IMG/VR virus record: IMGVR_UViG_3300045135_000207
Span: 1-20,180 of that record
Length of the DNA stretch: 20,180 nt
Direction: 5' to 3' (one strand)
DNA from: a virus
Shown here: positions 4,163 through 11,770 of the stretch, in pieces
Layout: each line of letters opens with the position of its first letter
Position numbering within the stretch: the first letter of the stretch is position 1
The notes under the pieces: generated by a model
The model's database searches: none
Told to the model about the DNA's origin: nothing
Seen by the model: only the letters and a program-made list of their open reading frames with translations
Translations under genes and position numbers: made by a program

Positions 4163-5635
4163 ATGGCTATTTTTGACTTTATGAAACCAAAGCCAAAAGA
4201 ACAGCCAAAAGTGTTCAAAAGAGCGTATCAAGCCGCCAATACAGGCCGCCTTTTTGCTGATTATGTCGATTCAGAGCGGTCGCCAGACTCGGAATTATAC
4301 CCAGTAATCAACAGGTTACGCGCTCGATCGCGTGATTTGGCCCGTAATAACGCGTATGTTCGCCGATATTTACAGCTATTACAGCACAACGTAGTGGGTA
4401 AAAAGGGCATTTCTTACCAGTCCAAAGCATTGTCGCCGAACGGAATGATGGACATGGACGGCAATCAGGCTGTCGAATCCGCATTTAAGATGTGGAGTAA
4501 GATGGGCCATTGTACTGTTGACGGTAAAATGTCATTCACCGACGCCCAGAAGTTGGTTATGGAAGGTCTGGCGCGGGATGGTGAGGTCTTCATCATCAAG
4601 CATCGATCAGCATCGTTCCATGATTCGTTCGCGCTGGAGTTTATCGAGCCAGAGCAAGTCGACGACCAAATGAATAAACGGGCCGAGAACGGCAACGAGA
4701 TCAGAATGGGTGTTGAGCTGGACAAGTTCCGACGACCAGTGGCTTATCACTTGCTGACGTATCATAAAGGCGACTACGACTACACGACCCAGACAAAATC
4801 GCCAAAGCACATCCGTGTACCTGCCGAGAAAATGATACATGTATTTATGCCTAGACGCGCGGGACAGACTCGTGGTGAGCCGTGGGCGTCTTCGGTAATG
4901 TCATCGATCAAGATGTTGGACGGATGGCGTGAGGCGTCGATTGTGGCGGCGAGAGTCGGTGCGTCGAAGATGGGATTCTTCACAAGTCCGTCGGGCGATG
5001 GCTTTGTCGCTGATGAGTTGGATGGATCAATTCCAATCATGGATGCATCTGCGGGAAGTTTTCACCAGCTACCAACAGGCGTAGACTTTAAATCATTCGA
5101 CCCCCAGTACCCGACGAGCGAATTCGATTCGTTCCATAAAGCGGTACTCAAAGGAGTTGCTTCAGGTCTTGGCATATCCTACACGTCACTAGCTAACGAC
5201 TTGGAAGCTACCAGTTATTCATCGATCCGTCAGGGTGCGCTTGAAGAGCGGGACTTCTACCAGAATACCCAAGAGTTTTTGATCGACCACTTTGTTCGCC
5301 CAGTATTTGAGGCGTGGCTTGCGTCAGCGATGGAAATGGGGTCTGTGAACTTCCCGCTTAGGGCTTATGATAAGTTTGCAAGCGCGGCTGAGTTCCGTGG
5401 TCGGTCTTGGAACTGGGTTGATCCTCAGAAGGAAATGAACGCGGCGATCAACGGTTTGCAGGCTGGCATATTGTCGCTCTCAGATGTGGCGGCAAATTAC
5501 GGCAAGGATTCAGAAGAATTGCTCAGTGCTATTGCGCGAGACAAAGCATTGATGGATCAGTTCAGCATTTCTTACGGACTAGAGCCGTATGGCGTGCAGA
5601 AGATGCCAGAGGTAGCCGACGATGGCGACGTATAA
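4163..5635 (+). CDS. Portal protein (lambda gpB family)
   Basis: This 490-residue protein is the likely dodecameric ring at the unique head vertex through which DNA enters and leaves, and to which terminase and connectors bind. The N-terminal part (about 45-100) with ELYPVINRLRARSRDLARNN and YLQLLQHNVVG is characteristic of the lambda-type portal family. The central part has the conserved HVFMPRRAGQTRGEPWASSV stretch. After it come the segment ending in SGLGISYTSLANDLEATSYSS and the stem/crown region. Length is close to lambda gpB (533 residues). The protein starts one base after the stop of the upstream gene and its end overlaps the protease-capsid gene by 14 bases, so coupling on both sides is likely. 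Nothing looks broken. Confidence 0.96.
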   Translation: MAIFDFMKPKPKEQPKVFKRAYQAANTGRLFADYVDSERSPDSELYPVINRLRARSRDLARNNAYVRRYLQLLQHNVVGKKGISYQSKALSPNGMMDMDGNQAVESAFKMWSKMGHCTVDGKMSFTDAQKLVMEGLARDGEVFIIKHRSASFHDSFALEFIEPEQVDDQMNKRAENGNEIRMGVELDKFRRPVAYHLLTYHKGDYDYTTQTKSPKHIRVPAEKMIHVFMPRRAGQTRGEPWASSVMSSIKMLDGWREASIVAARVGASKMGFFTSPSGDGFVADELDGSIPIMDASAGSFHQLPTGVDFKSFDPQYPTSEFDSFHKAVLKGVASGLGISYTSLANDLEATSYSSIRQGALEERDFYQNTQEFLIDHFVRPVFEAWLASAMEMGSVNFPLRAYDKFASAAEFRGRSWNWVDPQKEMNAAINGLQAGILSLSDVAANYGKDSEELLSAIARDKALMDQFSISYGLEPYGVQKMPEVADDGDV

Positions 5636-7913
5636 AGGCGAAGAAATAAACACAAAACCAACGGAGGCGATGGCCAACAATGCTAAACGTGGTCTGGAAT
5701 GGCGCGAAGAATTTGGTCGGGGCGGTACTGAAGTCGGTGTCGCTCGTGCTAGAGACCTTGCTAACCGTCGCGAGCTTTCTATTGATACTGTGCGCCGTAT
5801 GTATTCTTACTTTGCAAGGCATGCTGTCGATAAAGAGGCAGAGGGCTTCAACTCAGGAGAGGAAGGATTCCCCAGCGCAGGGAGAATTGCGTTTGAACTC
5901 TGGGGCGGTAGTGAAGGCGAGTCATGGACAAACAGAATCGTCCAGCGTCTCAATACATTAGATGATCGCTCGCTCGATGTGGTAGAATTAGACGAGATCG
6001 AGGAAAAAGTTATGGAAAATCAGCAAGTTGACATTGAAGAAGTGATCGAAGACGCGGAGCGCATGGCTGAGGCTATCGAAGAATCTGTGGTCGTCGATGA
6101 TGTATCAATCGAAGATGAGTCTGAAGGCAACCGCAAGGGTGTGAAAGTTGAACACCGTGCGATGGAAATGGACGACAGTGCGATTGACGAAGAGACTCGC
6201 ACAGTCCGCATGTCTATCAGCTCAGAATACCCAGTACAGCGATCATTCGGAATGGAAGTGTTAGAGCATTCAGCCGATGCGATTGATTTGTCATTTTTAA
6301 ACTCAGGTCGAGCGCCATTGTTGCTCGATCACGACCCTGAGAAGCAAATTGGGGTTATAGAATCTGTCGAACTCGACGGCTCGGCGCGGCGGCTCCGCGC
6401 GACGGCTCGCTTTGGAAAGGGCGTGCTTGCTAGAGAGGCTTTCGACGATGTGGTTGATGGTATTAAGTCGAACATTTCGATCGGCTACGCTATCAACAAA
6501 CTAGAGCGTCAAGATAAGGACACTTATGTGGCAAAGTCTTGGCGACCTATGGAAGCATCGCTTGTTTCCCTGCCCGCTGATCAGTCGGAGCTCGTTGGCG
6601 TGGGACGGTCTTGCGAGACTTCACCTAAACCCGTGATAAAAACTGACTTCAAGGAGATTCCCATGTCAGAACAAAACTTTGATATCGCGGCAGTCGAGGC
6701 AGAAGCCCGCAAAGCCGCACAGCGTAACGCCGCTCAAATTGTCGAGCTTGGCGCACGTCACAACAAGAGCGATCTTGCTCAGAAAGCCATTGCTGAAGGA
6801 CTAAGCATCGAAGAATTCCGTGGTGAATTGCTCGAAGCAGTAGGTTCTACTCGTGCGCTGGAAGAGAAAGAAATCGGCATGAGCAAGAAAGAAGTTAAAA
6901 AGTTCTCTCTGATGCGTGCTATCCATGCTCTTGCAAACCCAACTGACCGACGCGCTCAGGAAGCCGCCGCATTCGAATTCGAATGTTCACGTGCCGCCGC
7001 TGAAGCATATGGTCGTACAGCACAGGGCATCTTGTTGCCTGCTGAAGTAATGCGCAACTGGAAGCGTGACCTGAACAGCTCTGACGATTCAGCATTGTTC
7101 ACTGACGATTTCCGTGGCGGTGACTTCATCGACGCACTTCGCAACGCTTCATCTGTAATGCAGGCTGGCGCTCGTATGCTTGGCGGTCTTTCTGGCGATG
7201 TCAAAATCCCCAAGAAAACCACTGCGGCATCTGCGGCTTGGATTGCAACTGAGGGCGGCGCTTCTTCTGAGTCAGAAATGACCGTTGGTTCTGTGAGTCT
7301 AACCCCGAAAACTTTGGGCGCATTCACAGATATCTCGAGACAGCTTATGATCCAAAGCTCACTTGATGTCGAAGCACTGGTTCGTGATGACCTTGCTCAA
7401 GCTATCGCTCTTGCGATCGACCTTGGCGCATTGGCAGGCTCTGGCTCAAGCGGTCAGCCTACAGGAATCAAGAACACTTCAGGCATCAACACGGTTGACT
7501 TCGGTACAGCTCCAGACCTCGTCCCAACATGGGCGCAGGTTATCGAGATGGAAACCAAAGTGCGTGAAGACAACGCTCTGGGCAACGGCGGCGCTTACAT
7601 TTCAAACGCTACTATGTATGGTGCACTGAAAGCAGTTGAGAAAGCAAGCAACACCGCTCAGTTCGTAGTTGGCCCTGATGGAAACATGAACGGATACCGC
7701 ACTATCGTATCTAATCAGGTTGGCTCTGGTGACCTTTACTTTGGAGATTTCCAGAATAACTTGTTGATTGGAATGTTCGGTGGTCTCGATATAGTAGTAG
7801 ATCCATATACTGCTAGCACTAGCGGAACTGTAAGGGTAGTGGCTTTGCAGTCATGCGACGTAGCAGTACGTCACGCGGCGGCATTCTGCTTAGGCAACGA
7901 CGGCGGTAGCTAA
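5622..7913 (+). CDS. Prohead protease / major capsid protein fusion
   Basis: One uninterrupted 763-codon frame contains three parts. Residues about 12-110 are a small accessory domain (motifs AKRGLEWREEFGRGGTEVGV, SYFARHAVDKEAEGF, PSAGRIAFELWGG) that I recall from other phage head proteins but cannot name. Residues about 130-180 are a very acidic linker. Residues about 180-330 are an HK97-type (S78-like) prohead protease, with the likely catalytic His237 in LLLDHDPEKQIG and Ser286 in SNISIGYAI. Residues 348-763 are an HK97-fold major capsid protein. Its N-terminal charged helical segment (about 348-450) is the usual delta/scaffold domain, normally cleaved by the protease. Protease-capsid fusions of this kind are known in phages. 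No stop separates the parts, but an excellent internal ribosome binding site precedes residue 348 (see separate entry). The full-length fusion is probably the minor product. ATG 5622 has AGAGG at 5608-5612 upstream. Confidence 0.93.
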   Translation: MATYKGEEINTKPTEAMANNAKRGLEWREEFGRGGTEVGVARARDLANRRELSIDTVRRMYSYFARHAVDKEAEGFNSGEEGFPSAGRIAFELWGGSEGESWTNRIVQRLNTLDDRSLDVVELDEIEEKVMENQQVDIEEVIEDAERMAEAIEESVVVDDVSIEDESEGNRKGVKVEHRAMEMDDSAIDEETRTVRMSISSEYPVQRSFGMEVLEHSADAIDLSFLNSGRAPLLLDHDPEKQIGVIESVELDGSARRLRATARFGKGVLAREAFDDVVDGIKSNISIGYAINKLERQDKDTYVAKSWRPMEASLVSLPADQSELVGVGRSCETSPKPVIKTDFKEIPMSEQNFDIAAVEAEARKAAQRNAAQIVELGARHNKSDLAQKAIAEGLSIEEFRGELLEAVGSTRALEEKEIGMSKKEVKKFSLMRAIHALANPTDRRAQEAAAFEFECSRAAAEAYGRTAQGILLPAEVMRNWKRDLNSSDDSALFTDDFRGGDFIDALRNASSVMQAGARMLGGLSGDVKIPKKTTAASAAWIATEGGASSESEMTVGSVSLTPKTLGAFTDISRQLMIQSSLDVEALVRDDLAQAIALAIDLGALAGSGSSGQPTGIKNTSGINTVDFGTAPDLVPTWAQVIEMETKVREDNALGNGGAYISNATMYGALKAVEKASNTAQFVVGPDGNMNGYRTIVSNQVGSGDLYFGDFQNNLLIGMFGGLDIVVDPYTASTSGTVRVVALQSCDVAVRHAAAFCLGNDGGS
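6000..6014 (+). promoter_or_regulatory. Possible internal ribosome binding site and start before the protease domain
   Basis: GAGGA at 6000-6004 sits 7 bases before an in-frame ATG at 6012 (residue 131 of the fusion). This start would skip the accessory N-terminal domain and give a 633-residue protease-capsid protein. The spacing is good but the match is moderate, and purine-rich stretches are common in acidic coding sequence, so chance is a real alternative. Confidence 0.35.
6651..6656 (+). promoter_or_regulatory. Internal Shine-Dalgarno AAGGAG for the major capsid protein
   Basis: AAGGAG is followed by a 6-base spacer and an in-frame ATG at 6663. Match and spacing are as good as any true start in this window (compare 60-65 and 9097-9103). 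It lies exactly at the boundary between the protease and capsid domains, so it most likely drives independent, high-level capsid synthesis. Confidence 0.8.
6663..7913 (+). CDS. Major capsid protein (HK97 fold), nested in-frame product
   Basis: Translation from ATG 6663 gives a 416-residue protein that is a complete HK97-type capsid subunit. It has a charged helical delta domain (about 1-95), then the shell region with motifs such as SAAWIATEGGASSESEMT, KTLGAFTDISRQLMIQSS (N-arm/E-loop to spine helix) and LIGMFGGLDIVVDPYT near the C-terminus. This shell protein is needed in hundreds of copies, while the protease is needed in few, which explains a separate start. By eye the codons after 6663 favour CGT, ATC, AAC and GAA more than the protease part, as expected for a highly expressed gene. 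The arrangement parallels lambda C/Nu3, where a scaffold is translated from inside the protease gene. Whether the virion subunit comes from this start, from cleavage of the fusion, or from both is inference. A terminator follows 7 bases after the stop. Confidence 0.85.
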   Translation: MSEQNFDIAAVEAEARKAAQRNAAQIVELGARHNKSDLAQKAIAEGLSIEEFRGELLEAVGSTRALEEKEIGMSKKEVKKFSLMRAIHALANPTDRRAQEAAAFEFECSRAAAEAYGRTAQGILLPAEVMRNWKRDLNSSDDSALFTDDFRGGDFIDALRNASSVMQAGARMLGGLSGDVKIPKKTTAASAAWIATEGGASSESEMTVGSVSLTPKTLGAFTDISRQLMIQSSLDVEALVRDDLAQAIALAIDLGALAGSGSSGQPTGIKNTSGINTVDFGTAPDLVPTWAQVIEMETKVREDNALGNGGAYISNATMYGALKAVEKASNTAQFVVGPDGNMNGYRTIVSNQVGSGDLYFGDFQNNLLIGMFGGLDIVVDPYTASTSGTVRVVALQSCDVAVRHAAAFCLGNDGGS

Positions 7914-9111: not shown

Positions 9112-9501
9112 ATGGCAGTTCATAAAGGCTCAGAAGGAACGATCAAGGTAGGCGCGAACGCCATTGCTGAGATCCGATCTTACTCACTAGAGGAAACAGG
9201 CGACACCATCGAAACTTCAACGATGGGTGATACGGCTCGCACTTATACTCCATCGCTCACCAGCTGGTCTGGCTCGGTCGACGTGTACTGGGACGAAACC
9301 GACACCACGGGTCAGGGCGCGTTAACCGTTGGTGCAGAGGTTACCTTGAACGTATACCCTGAAGGCGACACTACTGGTGATGCGTACTATACAGGTTCAG
9401 CTATTGTGACTGGTGTCAGCACCACAGCGTCGTTCGATGGCTTAGTTGAGGCATCGATCAGCCTGCAAGGTACTGGCGCACTAACGAACACCACGGTGTA
9501 A
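9112..9501 (+). CDS. Major tail (tube) protein
   Basis: This 129-residue protein is the likely hexameric building block of the tail tube, assembling along the tape measure. It has the tube-protein pattern: a GSEGTIKVGANAIAEIRSYS strand pair, the ETGDTIETSTMGD loop, SWSGSVDVYWD, and a final beta segment (SFDGLVEASISLQGTGAL). The pattern matches the N-terminal domain of lambda gpV-like tube proteins without the extra C-terminal Ig domain of lambda gpV. Ribosome binding is near consensus: GAGGAGG at 9097-9103, 8 bases before ATG 9112, as expected for a highly expressed structural gene. The tail assembly chaperone gene follows one base after the stop. Confidence 0.9.
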   Translation: MAVHKGSEGTIKVGANAIAEIRSYSLEETGDTIETSTMGDTARTYTPSLTSWSGSVDVYWDETDTTGQGALTVGAEVTLNVYPEGDTTGDAYYTGSAIVTGVSTTASFDGLVEASISLQGTGALTNTTV

Positions 9502-9502
9502 T

Positions 9503-9841
9503 ATGAGCGTATTGGATAAGGCCAAAAGCCATTACAAATCCAAGCTAACAGCCGAGCCGCAGAAGATCGACATCCCAGAGTGGGATACAACGGTGTATAT
9601 TAAGCCAGCGATCAACTTGCACCAGCTCGGCGAAATCATGGAGCTAAGCCAAAGCGGTAAGACCGCCGAGGCTATGGCTCTTACTTTGATCTATCGACTG
9701 ATCGACGAAGATGGTAAGGCGATTTTCCGCAAGCCAGATCGTCAGGAGCTGATGCGATCGGTTGACCCAGACACCCTAGCCCGTGTTGTCGGTGAGATAA
9801 ACGCGAGCGATCCTTCTGAGGATGATGTCGAGGGAAACTAA
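9503..9841 (+). CDS. Tail assembly chaperone, short form (gpG-like)
   Basis: A 112-residue protein that should bind the tape measure protein and tube subunits during tail assembly and is absent from the finished virion. It has a helical N-terminus (MSVLDKAKSHYKSKL), a beta strand with YIKPAINLHQLGEIMEL, a helical middle (GKTAEAMALTLIYRLID), the typical '.G..IF...D...L' segment and an acidic C-terminus (DPSEDDVEGN). The last two sense codons are GGA AAC, followed at once by TAA, and are part of a slippery heptamer (9832-9838). The short form is the normal translation product, and the longer form arises by -1 frameshifting (next entry). Confidence 0.88.
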   Translation: MSVLDKAKSHYKSKLTAEPQKIDIPEWDTTVYIKPAINLHQLGEIMELSQSGKTAEAMALTLIYRLIDEDGKAIFRKPDRQELMRSVDPDTLARVVGEINASDPSEDDVEGN

Positions 9842-9990
9842 GAGCCGACCATGATCTTCAGTTCCGTTACCATCTAGCGGAATTATTGGGGAAAACGGTC
9901 GGCGAGATCAATCGGATGGATGTCAGAGAATACTTTGGCTGGATTGCGTGGTTAAAGATGAAGAGCGAGAAAAGGCAAAATGGCAAATAA
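9503..9990 (+). CDS. Tail assembly chaperone, -1 frameshift product (gpGT-like)
   Basis: A -1 shift at 9832-9838 (join 9503..9838, 9838..9990) fuses the 112-residue short form to a 50-codon extension, giving 162 residues. The extension is open only from 9826 in this frame and has no start codon of its own in a sensible place. It reads like a real protein: DLQFRYHLAELLGKTVGEI, then MDVREYFGWIAWLKMK and a basic end. That helical pattern with conserved aromatics is typical of the T-like C-terminal domain in phage chaperones of the G/GT type. In lambda, gpGT recruits tube protein to the gpG-coated tape measure; the same role is inferred here. The extension stop TAA at 9988-9990 overlaps the tape measure start at 9980. 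Confidence 0.85.
9832..9838 (+). promoter_or_regulatory. Programmed -1 ribosomal frameshift site GGGAAAC
   Basis: The heptamer G GGA AAC has the X XXY YYZ form in the reading frame of the chaperone gene. It differs from the lambda G/T slippery site (GGGAAAG) only in the last base. The zero-frame stop TAA follows immediately, and the -1 frame continues for 50 codons. Confidence 0.85.
9844..9903 (+). promoter_or_regulatory. Stem-loop downstream of the frameshift site
   Basis: GCCGACC at 9844-9850 pairs perfectly with GGTCGGC at 9897-9903, beginning 5 bases after the slippery heptamer, the usual spacing of stimulatory structures. Inside the loop, 9860-9866 (AGTTCCG) pairs with 9878-9884 (CGGAATT) with one G-U pair, giving a nested second hairpin. 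This probably pauses the ribosome on the slippery site. Confidence 0.72.
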
Positions 9991-11770
9991 ATCAGATTAT
10001 CTCGTAAACCTAACCGCAAAGGACAATACAGCCAAGGCGTTTAATTCTTTACAGCGACGCATGACGAATGCTCGTAAGGGTATGAATCGTGTTGCTGGTA
10101 ACTTCGCCAAGATGGGCGGTGCGGCGGCTCTAGCGGCTGGCGCGGCTGGCGCGGCCTTCGTGAAAATGCGAATGTCTGCGATCGACAGTCTAGCAAAGAC
10201 TGCCGATAAGTTAGGCGTAACCACTGAGGCACTGGCAGGGTTCCGACATGCGGCAGAGCTGTCTGGGATGTCGTCAAATCAGTTTGATAAATCACTTCAG
10301 AACTTAGGCGTACAGGTTGCCAATGCCGCAAAAGGTACGGGTATCGCCGTTCGTGCGCTTGATGACTTAGGTTTGAACGCGGCGGCGCTTGCTGAATTGC
10401 CGCTAGACCAGCAAATGCTAGAAGTTGCTAAGGCGATGGAAGGTGTAGAAAGTCAGTCAGAGAAGACCCGTATAGCGTATGAGTTGTTCGGTGCGCGTGG
10501 CGTTGGTGTCCTTAATATGATGAAGGGCGGCGCTGACGGGATGATGTCGATGGCTAAAGAGGCCGAGACATTAGGTATCGCCATTAGTCGAGTTGATGCG
10601 GCGCAGATCGAAGCCGCAAACGATAGTGTGACACGGGCTAAAGGTGTATTCGAAGGATTCGGGAATCAAATAGCCGTTGCGTTTTCGCCTATTGTCTCAG
10701 AGCTTGCGGCGAACTTCTATCAAACCGCGCTAGATATGAACGGCGCTGGAAGTGTTGGTGACCGCGTTGTGCAGGCATTGGTTAAGGGCTTCGGCTTTGC
10801 GGCTAACGCTGTCAAAGGTCTGAAAATTGCCGTAATGGGGATACAGTATGTGTTCGCTAAAATGGCGCAAGGTGCTACGTTCGCGCTTTCTAAACTTTTG
10901 ATAATGATTGATAAAGCAATCGAAAAGTACAACGAGATTGCAGACGTATTCAACCTCAATAAGATCGACTTTAAGCCAGCTGAGCAGTTGGGCTTGCTTT
11001 CTGACGCGTTCGGCGCTGAAGCAGATAACATCAAAGACAGAATACAAACAGCATTAAACGAACCGCTACCATCCGATCAGATCCAATCGTTCTATGACAC
11101 AGTGCAGGCGAAGGCTCGGGAAACTGCCGAAGTTGTCGCGGCTAATGCGCCAGCGGTTGTCATGCAGAACGCGGAAGCTGAAAACATAGATCCGAAAAAG
11201 GTATCTATGTATGAGAAAGCAAAGCGTGAAGGATCGGCAAAACTGGCAGAGTTCGAGAAGAAAACAGCATCGGAAAAGACCCAGTACGTCATGGGTCAAT
11301 TGGATGCTGAGCTTTCAGGCGTAGCCAAACACTCTAAGAAGCTGTTTGCACTACAGAAAGCGATGCAAATCGGTCAGGCGATTATGAATACATACACCGC
11401 CGCGACCAAAGCACTAGCAAGTTACCCACCGCCACTAAACGCCGTGTTTGCAGGTCTGGCGATCGCTAACGGTATGGCGCAGGTTGCACAGATTAAGGCG
11501 CAATCGTTCGAGGGCGGCGGTTTTACGGGGTATGGAGCGCGTGCTGGGGGCTTGGACGGAAAAGGTGGCTATATGGCCATGCTTCACCCGAACGAATCAG
11601 TAATCGATCACACGAAAGGTCAGGGGCAGGGTATTACTATCGTAAACAACGTCGACGCTACTGGTGGAGGTGCAGATGTAGATCAGCGAATCCGCATGGC
11701 GATGGAAGTAACTTCACAACAGACGGTTAAACAAGTACAAGACTTATTGCGTCGGCAAAGGATGGTGTAA
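9980..11770 (+). CDS. Tape measure protein
   Basis: This 596-residue protein should set the tail length and may pass into the host envelope during DNA injection. The N-terminal 45 residues are basic and helical. A hydrophobic Ala/Gly-rich stretch (GGAAALAAGAAGAAFV, about 46-62) is followed by long helices with the phage tape-measure motif DSLAKTADKLGVTTEALAGF (about 70-90) and a hydrophobic/amphipathic middle (about 265-315). The C-terminal part holds a helical segment with YTAATKALASYPPPLNAVFAG (about 470-490), a Gly-rich FEGGGFTGYGARAGG segment common in these proteins, and a final basic helix. lambda gpH (853 residues) gives a tail of about 135 nm. By proportion this protein would give roughly 90-95 nm. 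It overlaps the chaperone extension by 11 bases, which couples it to the chaperone genes. Confidence 0.93.
   Translation: MANKSDYLVNLTAKDNTAKAFNSLQRRMTNARKGMNRVAGNFAKMGGAAALAAGAAGAAFVKMRMSAIDSLAKTADKLGVTTEALAGFRHAAELSGMSSNQFDKSLQNLGVQVANAAKGTGIAVRALDDLGLNAAALAELPLDQQMLEVAKAMEGVESQSEKTRIAYELFGARGVGVLNMMKGGADGMMSMAKEAETLGIAISRVDAAQIEAANDSVTRAKGVFEGFGNQIAVAFSPIVSELAANFYQTALDMNGAGSVGDRVVQALVKGFGFAANAVKGLKIAVMGIQYVFAKMAQGATFALSKLLIMIDKAIEKYNEIADVFNLNKIDFKPAEQLGLLSDAFGAEADNIKDRIQTALNEPLPSDQIQSFYDTVQAKARETAEVVAANAPAVVMQNAEAENIDPKKVSMYEKAKREGSAKLAEFEKKTASEKTQYVMGQLDAELSGVAKHSKKLFALQKAMQIGQAIMNTYTAATKALASYPPPLNAVFAGLAIANGMAQVAQIKAQSFEGGGFTGYGARAGGLDGKGGYMAMLHPNESVIDHTKGQGQGITIVNNVDATGGGADVDQRIRMAMEVTSQQTVKQVQDLLRRQRMV

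Follow-up and report, generated by a model that had tools for sequence, protein, structure and literature searches.

A probable -1 ribosomal frameshift site at the end of the tail assembly chaperone gene in a marine-type phage lineage

Introduction

Does the tail assembly chaperone gene of this virus give one protein or, through a change of reading frame near its end, two? Frameshifting in a tail-assembly gene is a well-known trick of tailed phages. In phage lambda, G and G-T are made at about 30:1, a ratio that is important in tail assembly (PMC5009743). The window (the whole stretch of DNA analysed) is a record of 20,180 bases of virus DNA with packaging, head and tail genes, and its source is a marine-type tailed phage. 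A sequence-only reading had proposed a complete -1 frameshift cassette at the end of its chaperone gene. Here, we examine that proposal by comparing the site with its relatives and with known systems.

Results

The chaperone gene and its relatives

The chaperone reading frame runs from ATG 9503 to TAA 9839-9841, and the proposed cassette sits between the major tail protein and tape measure genes, as it does in systems of the lambda type (Table 1). The 0-frame product is a tail assembly chaperone by its match to phrog_344, a profile matched by all 10 family members scanned; in Pfam, G gave only a subthreshold match to Phage_TAC_13. Elsewhere in the window, an ORF of 763 aa occupies the capsid position (5622-7913); this is longer than would be expected of a capsid protein by itself, and the ORF may encode a protease fused to a capsid protein. 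The ORF of Roseobacter phage CRP-811 labelled 'major capsid protein' is of similar length. The ORF at 71-1264, adjoining the terminase genes, looks by eye like a ParB-like domain with a DNA methyltransferase.

Two scans of viral contigs, together with two phage records, supplied the 82 loci of the survey, counting the window. Around the site, 58 of these sequences are distinct, namely the window and 57 relatives. A scan of genome contigs found no relative, so no host can be named from prophages.

Table 1. Tail-gene features around the proposed frameshift site, in window coordinates
Feature	Position	Strand	Evidence
Major tail (tube) protein gene	9112..9501	+	phrog_1407 major tail protein, 3.8e-19; PF06199 over its cut-off
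Tail assembly chaperone G, 0-frame product, 112 aa	9503..9841	+	phrog_344 tail assembly chaperone, 2.8e-10; 57 distinct relatives
GAGG, possible internal Shine-Dalgarno-like stimulator (tentative)	9818..9821	+	10 nt upstream of heptamer; 47/58
Slippery heptamer G_GGA_AAC, abutting TAA	9832..9838	+	In-register RRRAAAC in 58/58; before stop in 57/58; fixed codons
-1 extension (T-like domain) and its stop, overlapping tape measure start at 9980	9838..9987	+	phrog_337; fused-product alignment; substitution phase
Stem-loop, outer 7-bp stem 9844-9850/9897-9903, inner hairpin near 9860-9884	9844..9903	+	z -4.3; compensatory changes; low wobble diversity
Tape measure protein gene	9980..11770	+	phrog_9483, 3.7e-95

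A heptamer kept in register at the stop codon

The 3' end of the chaperone gene reads GAG GGA AAC TAA, with GGGAAAC in X_XXY_YYZ register directly before the stop, just as the sequence-only reading had placed it (9832-9838). The plus strand of the window contains 36 XXXYYY hexamers, and about 0.007 in-register sites would be expected by chance at the four positions that follow the final -1 stop and precede the 0-frame stop, an estimate that is secondary to the comparative evidence. A second plus-strand GGGAAAC, at 11118, was dismissed by arithmetic as out of register within the tape measure gene.

Every one of the 58 distinct sequences carries a heptamer in register inside the overlap of the two reading frames, as in lambda: GGGAAAC in 42 and AAAAAAC in 16. 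It stands directly before the stop codon in 57, and one codon earlier in the remaining sequence (L100); TAA, TGA and TAG are all used as the stop among the relatives. The codons within the heptamer are fixed. Glycine at the site is encoded by GGA in 41 of 41 GGG-type sequences, compared with 28 of 248 glycine codons (11%) elsewhere in the gene, and asparagine by AAC in 53 of 53, compared with 86 of 186 (46%) elsewhere. Such codon choice cannot be explained by the 0-frame protein alone. Relatives that have lost the heptamer while retaining the extension were looked for, and none was found (0/58), all sequences keeping both. In the Pelagibacter phage HTVC202P (L020:2820-2842), the chaperone stop is preceded by AAAAAAA and AAAAAAC, which overlap and are both in register.

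The -1 frame encodes a conserved extension

Stops at 9793, 9817 and 9823 interrupt the -1 frame, which from 9826 is open up to the TAA at 9985-9987. This agrees with the sequence-only reading, whose expectation of a sensible domain in this frame is upheld by a conserved stretch of about 50 residues. An open, homologous -1 extension begins right after the heptamer in all 58 sequences. In the closer relatives it has the motif L[KR]xDxDLQF...LxKTVxEIxxMDxxEYxGW, and it is also present, unannotated in the records, in the two most distant relatives, Phage DSL-LC06 and HTVC202P. The extension matched phrog_337 in 10 of the 10 members scanned and had no match in Pfam. When G and the extension were joined, residues 3-155 of the 162-residue product aligned with the tail-chaperone profile phrog_16513 (E 4.8e-8), compared with an E of 0.004 for G alone.

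The pattern of substitution changes phase at the heptamer. Among 53 aligned sequences, diversity at the three frame-0 codon positions is 0.30, 0.22 and 0.62 upstream of the heptamer and 0.24, 0.53 and 0.29 downstream of it, such that the most variable position switches, exactly at the heptamer, from frame-0 position 3 to position 2, the wobble position of the -1 frame. This one-base move indicates that the downstream stretch is selected as protein in the -1 frame and, as in lambda-type systems, the extension is conserved from the heptamer onward.

A downstream stem-loop and an upstream GAGG

The 72 nt after the heptamer fold with a minimum free energy of -29.2 kcal/mol (z -4.3), and none of 200 shuffles was as stable. 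The perfect 7-bp outer stem that had been reported 5 nt 3' of the heptamer is there, with GCCGACC (9844-9850) pairing with GGTCGGC (9897-9903); the inner stem proposed at 9860-9866 and 9878-9884 does pair over 7 bp, although one of its pairs is G-U. The structure is better described as a single long irregular stem-loop with inner stems stacked than as the two separate stems of the earlier reading, and the complexity that had been singled out as more elaborate than a minimal site is not unusual for this class.

Comparison of the 38 distinct GGGAAAC sequences reveals covariation. Across this set, 74.7% of the pairs in the window structure form, compared with 34-41% in slid controls; 43 compensatory cells were counted, compared with 21.9 in shuffles; and the covariation score is 0.200, compared with 0.05-0.11 for slid controls. 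At outer-stem pairs 6-65, 7-64 and 12-59, both sides have changed with pairing retained in many sequences. Pair 12-59, one side of which is a synonymous third position, occurs as C-G, A-U and U-A, and its state has changed about seven times on the tree of the upstream gene, with some changes breaking the pairing. Three of the five wobble positions in the outer stem are unusually constant (0.09-0.18, compared with a mean of 0.53). RNAalifold over all 38 sequences retained only four outer-stem pairs, which leaves the inner hairpin with weak support in the GGGAAAC set as a whole.

The outer stem is absent in most AAAAAAC relatives and weak or missing in a few GGGAAAC relatives (L065, L066 and L076), and thus is not required everywhere. 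The expectation that relatives would share heptamer, stem and extension is accordingly borne out for an RRRAAAC heptamer and the extension, in 58 of 58, but not for the stem. The stem is thus specific to a lineage, mainly the GGGAAAC branch, rather than common to the whole family. In contrast to its AAAAAAC neighbours, one AAAAAAC relative (L080:1837-1908) is predicted to form a downstream stem stronger than that of any other sequence (-39.8 kcal/mol, z -6.4). A search of Rfam gave no matching family in the window.

Upstream of the heptamer, GAGG lies at a distance of 7 or 10 nt in most relatives. GAGG or GGAG occurs within 21 nt in 47 of the 58 sequences, compared with 34.2 under a synonymous-codon null (maximum 45 in 1000 trials), an excess that is only suggestive because the sequences are related and not independent. 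Shine-Dalgarno sequences act as stimulators in dnaX and in many IS elements (PMC5009743), and this GAGG may be a further, weaker stimulator of frameshifting.

Discussion

The phase of substitution, the choice of codons and the covariation in the stem are all consistent with -1 programmed ribosomal frameshifting, which would yield tail chaperones G and G-T as it does in lambda, and on this sequence evidence we consider such frameshifting very probable. Most ribosomes would read GAG GGA AAC, terminate at the TAA and so make the 112-aa chaperone G. A smaller number would move one base back on G_GGA_AAC, aided by the stem-loop that starts 5 nt downstream and perhaps also by the upstream GAGG, and would then read CTA AGA GCC and onward to the TAA at 9985, producing a G-T fusion of about 162 aa. 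By analogy with lambda, G and G-T would associate with the tape measure protein, and the T portion would bring in the major tail protein. The sequences show the anatomy of the site, its conservation, coding in the -1 frame and covariation in the stem; ribosome slippage, the G:G-T ratio and the role in assembly we infer. Efficiency could be low, because AAC as the second codon made a poorer shift site than AAG in the A_AAA_AAN series in E. coli (PMC5009743).

Adjoining tail genes overlap and are translationally coupled in many phages, and with a GAGG present upstream of the G stop, the -1 reading frame could instead be a gene T in its own right, using a start of its own or re-initiation of translation past that stop, with no fusion formed. 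However, the -1 frame contains no ATG, GTG or TTG from its opening at 9826 to the start of the conserved domain, and conservation starts at the first codon past the heptamer. A separate gene would also leave the invariant heptamer and its fixed codons unexplained, and we regard it as highly improbable. Even less credible is a change of frame by transcriptional rather than ribosomal slippage. Some relatives do have runs of A6-A7 at the site, but GGGAAAC, the form found in the window and in most of the 58 sequences, offers only runs of three. These are too short for polymerase slippage as it is generally described, which involves runs of about nine A or T (PMC5009743). Moreover, a downstream RNA stem with compensatory changes is better suited to ribosomal slippage.

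The position of the stop codon raises another alternative, in which the frameshift is real but a single P-site tRNA slips while the stop occupies the A site and termination is slow, rather than two tRNAs slipping in tandem before the stop is reached. Abutment of stop and heptamer in 57 of 58 sequences, with all three stop codons in use, is consistent with this model, although the same adjacency would be expected if the 0-frame product simply must end there. In addition, slippage on AAC in the P site alone would give no reason to retain the GGG or AAA part of the site, but the X_XXY heptamer is conserved in full. We therefore consider P-site slippage unlikely and favor tandem slippage on the heptamer.

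The arrangement resembles lambda G/G-T: an X_XXY_YYZ heptamer lies close to the 3' end of the chaperone gene, the tape measure gene comes just after, and a -1 extension follows the heptamer (PMC5009743). It differs in the heptamer itself (GGGAAAC here, GGGAAAG in lambda), in having the stop directly after it, whereas 15 nt intervene in lambda, and in an extension of about 50 aa, whereas the lambda T frame is annotated as 144 aa. G has no detectable sequence similarity to lambda G (hhalign probability 0.3%), and lambda G touches phrog_344 only at E 0.049. The connection with lambda therefore lies in mechanism, in gene position and in the wider class (phrog_344), whose members share the first two and need not be homologous to lambda G. 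GGGAAAC directly before a stop has already been predicted in Burkholderia phage KL1, where gp18/gp19 has the heptamer right before TGA with a predicted stem-loop (PMC3483164); we also inspected this site in the KL1 sequence. In KL1, however, the extension is longer (a 264-aa product), an extra gene precedes the tape measure gene, and the chaperone G belongs to another family (phrog_8233/313). Haloarchaeal viruses also use both G_GGA_AAC and A_AAA_AAC (PMC5009743), and, by published description, the two heptamers alternate among related phages in the phiCbK-like group (AAAAAAC) and Colossus (GGGAAAC) (PMC3556154).

The nearest cultured relatives by terminase are the Roseobacter phages CRP-811 and CRP-406 of the CRP-822-type group. 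They have the same gene order, a chaperone gene ending in AAAAAAC-TAA and an open -1 extension of this type; unlike the window, they have the AAAAAAC heptamer and no significant stem (z -0.5 and 0.4). In both, the -1 extension fills the gap between the chaperone and tape measure genes (L107:2981-3118 (-) and L108:3022-3159 (-)). It is unannotated in their records, and the word frameshift is absent from the main text of the corresponding paper. CRP-6 has a different, longer extension ORF and no such heptamer at the annotated stop.

The pairing of GGGAAAC with a strong stem-loop, as opposed to AAAAAAC mostly without one, suggests a trade-off between heptamer and stem strength. Tentatively, the lineage may hold two versions of one recoding site, both against the stop, in which heptamer and stem are balanced to give a single frameshift rate, with a possible contribution from the adjacent stop.

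The principle of -1 frameshifting in tail genes is well known, and this site is a well-supported addition to the known class, in a marine-type lineage. The T-like extension is missing from the related cultured phage records that we checked, so their G-T proteins have been missed, and the annotation is corrected here. The 58 sequences also form a natural set of site variants for testing how the heptamer, adjacent stop, stem and GAGG affect the rate of frameshifting.
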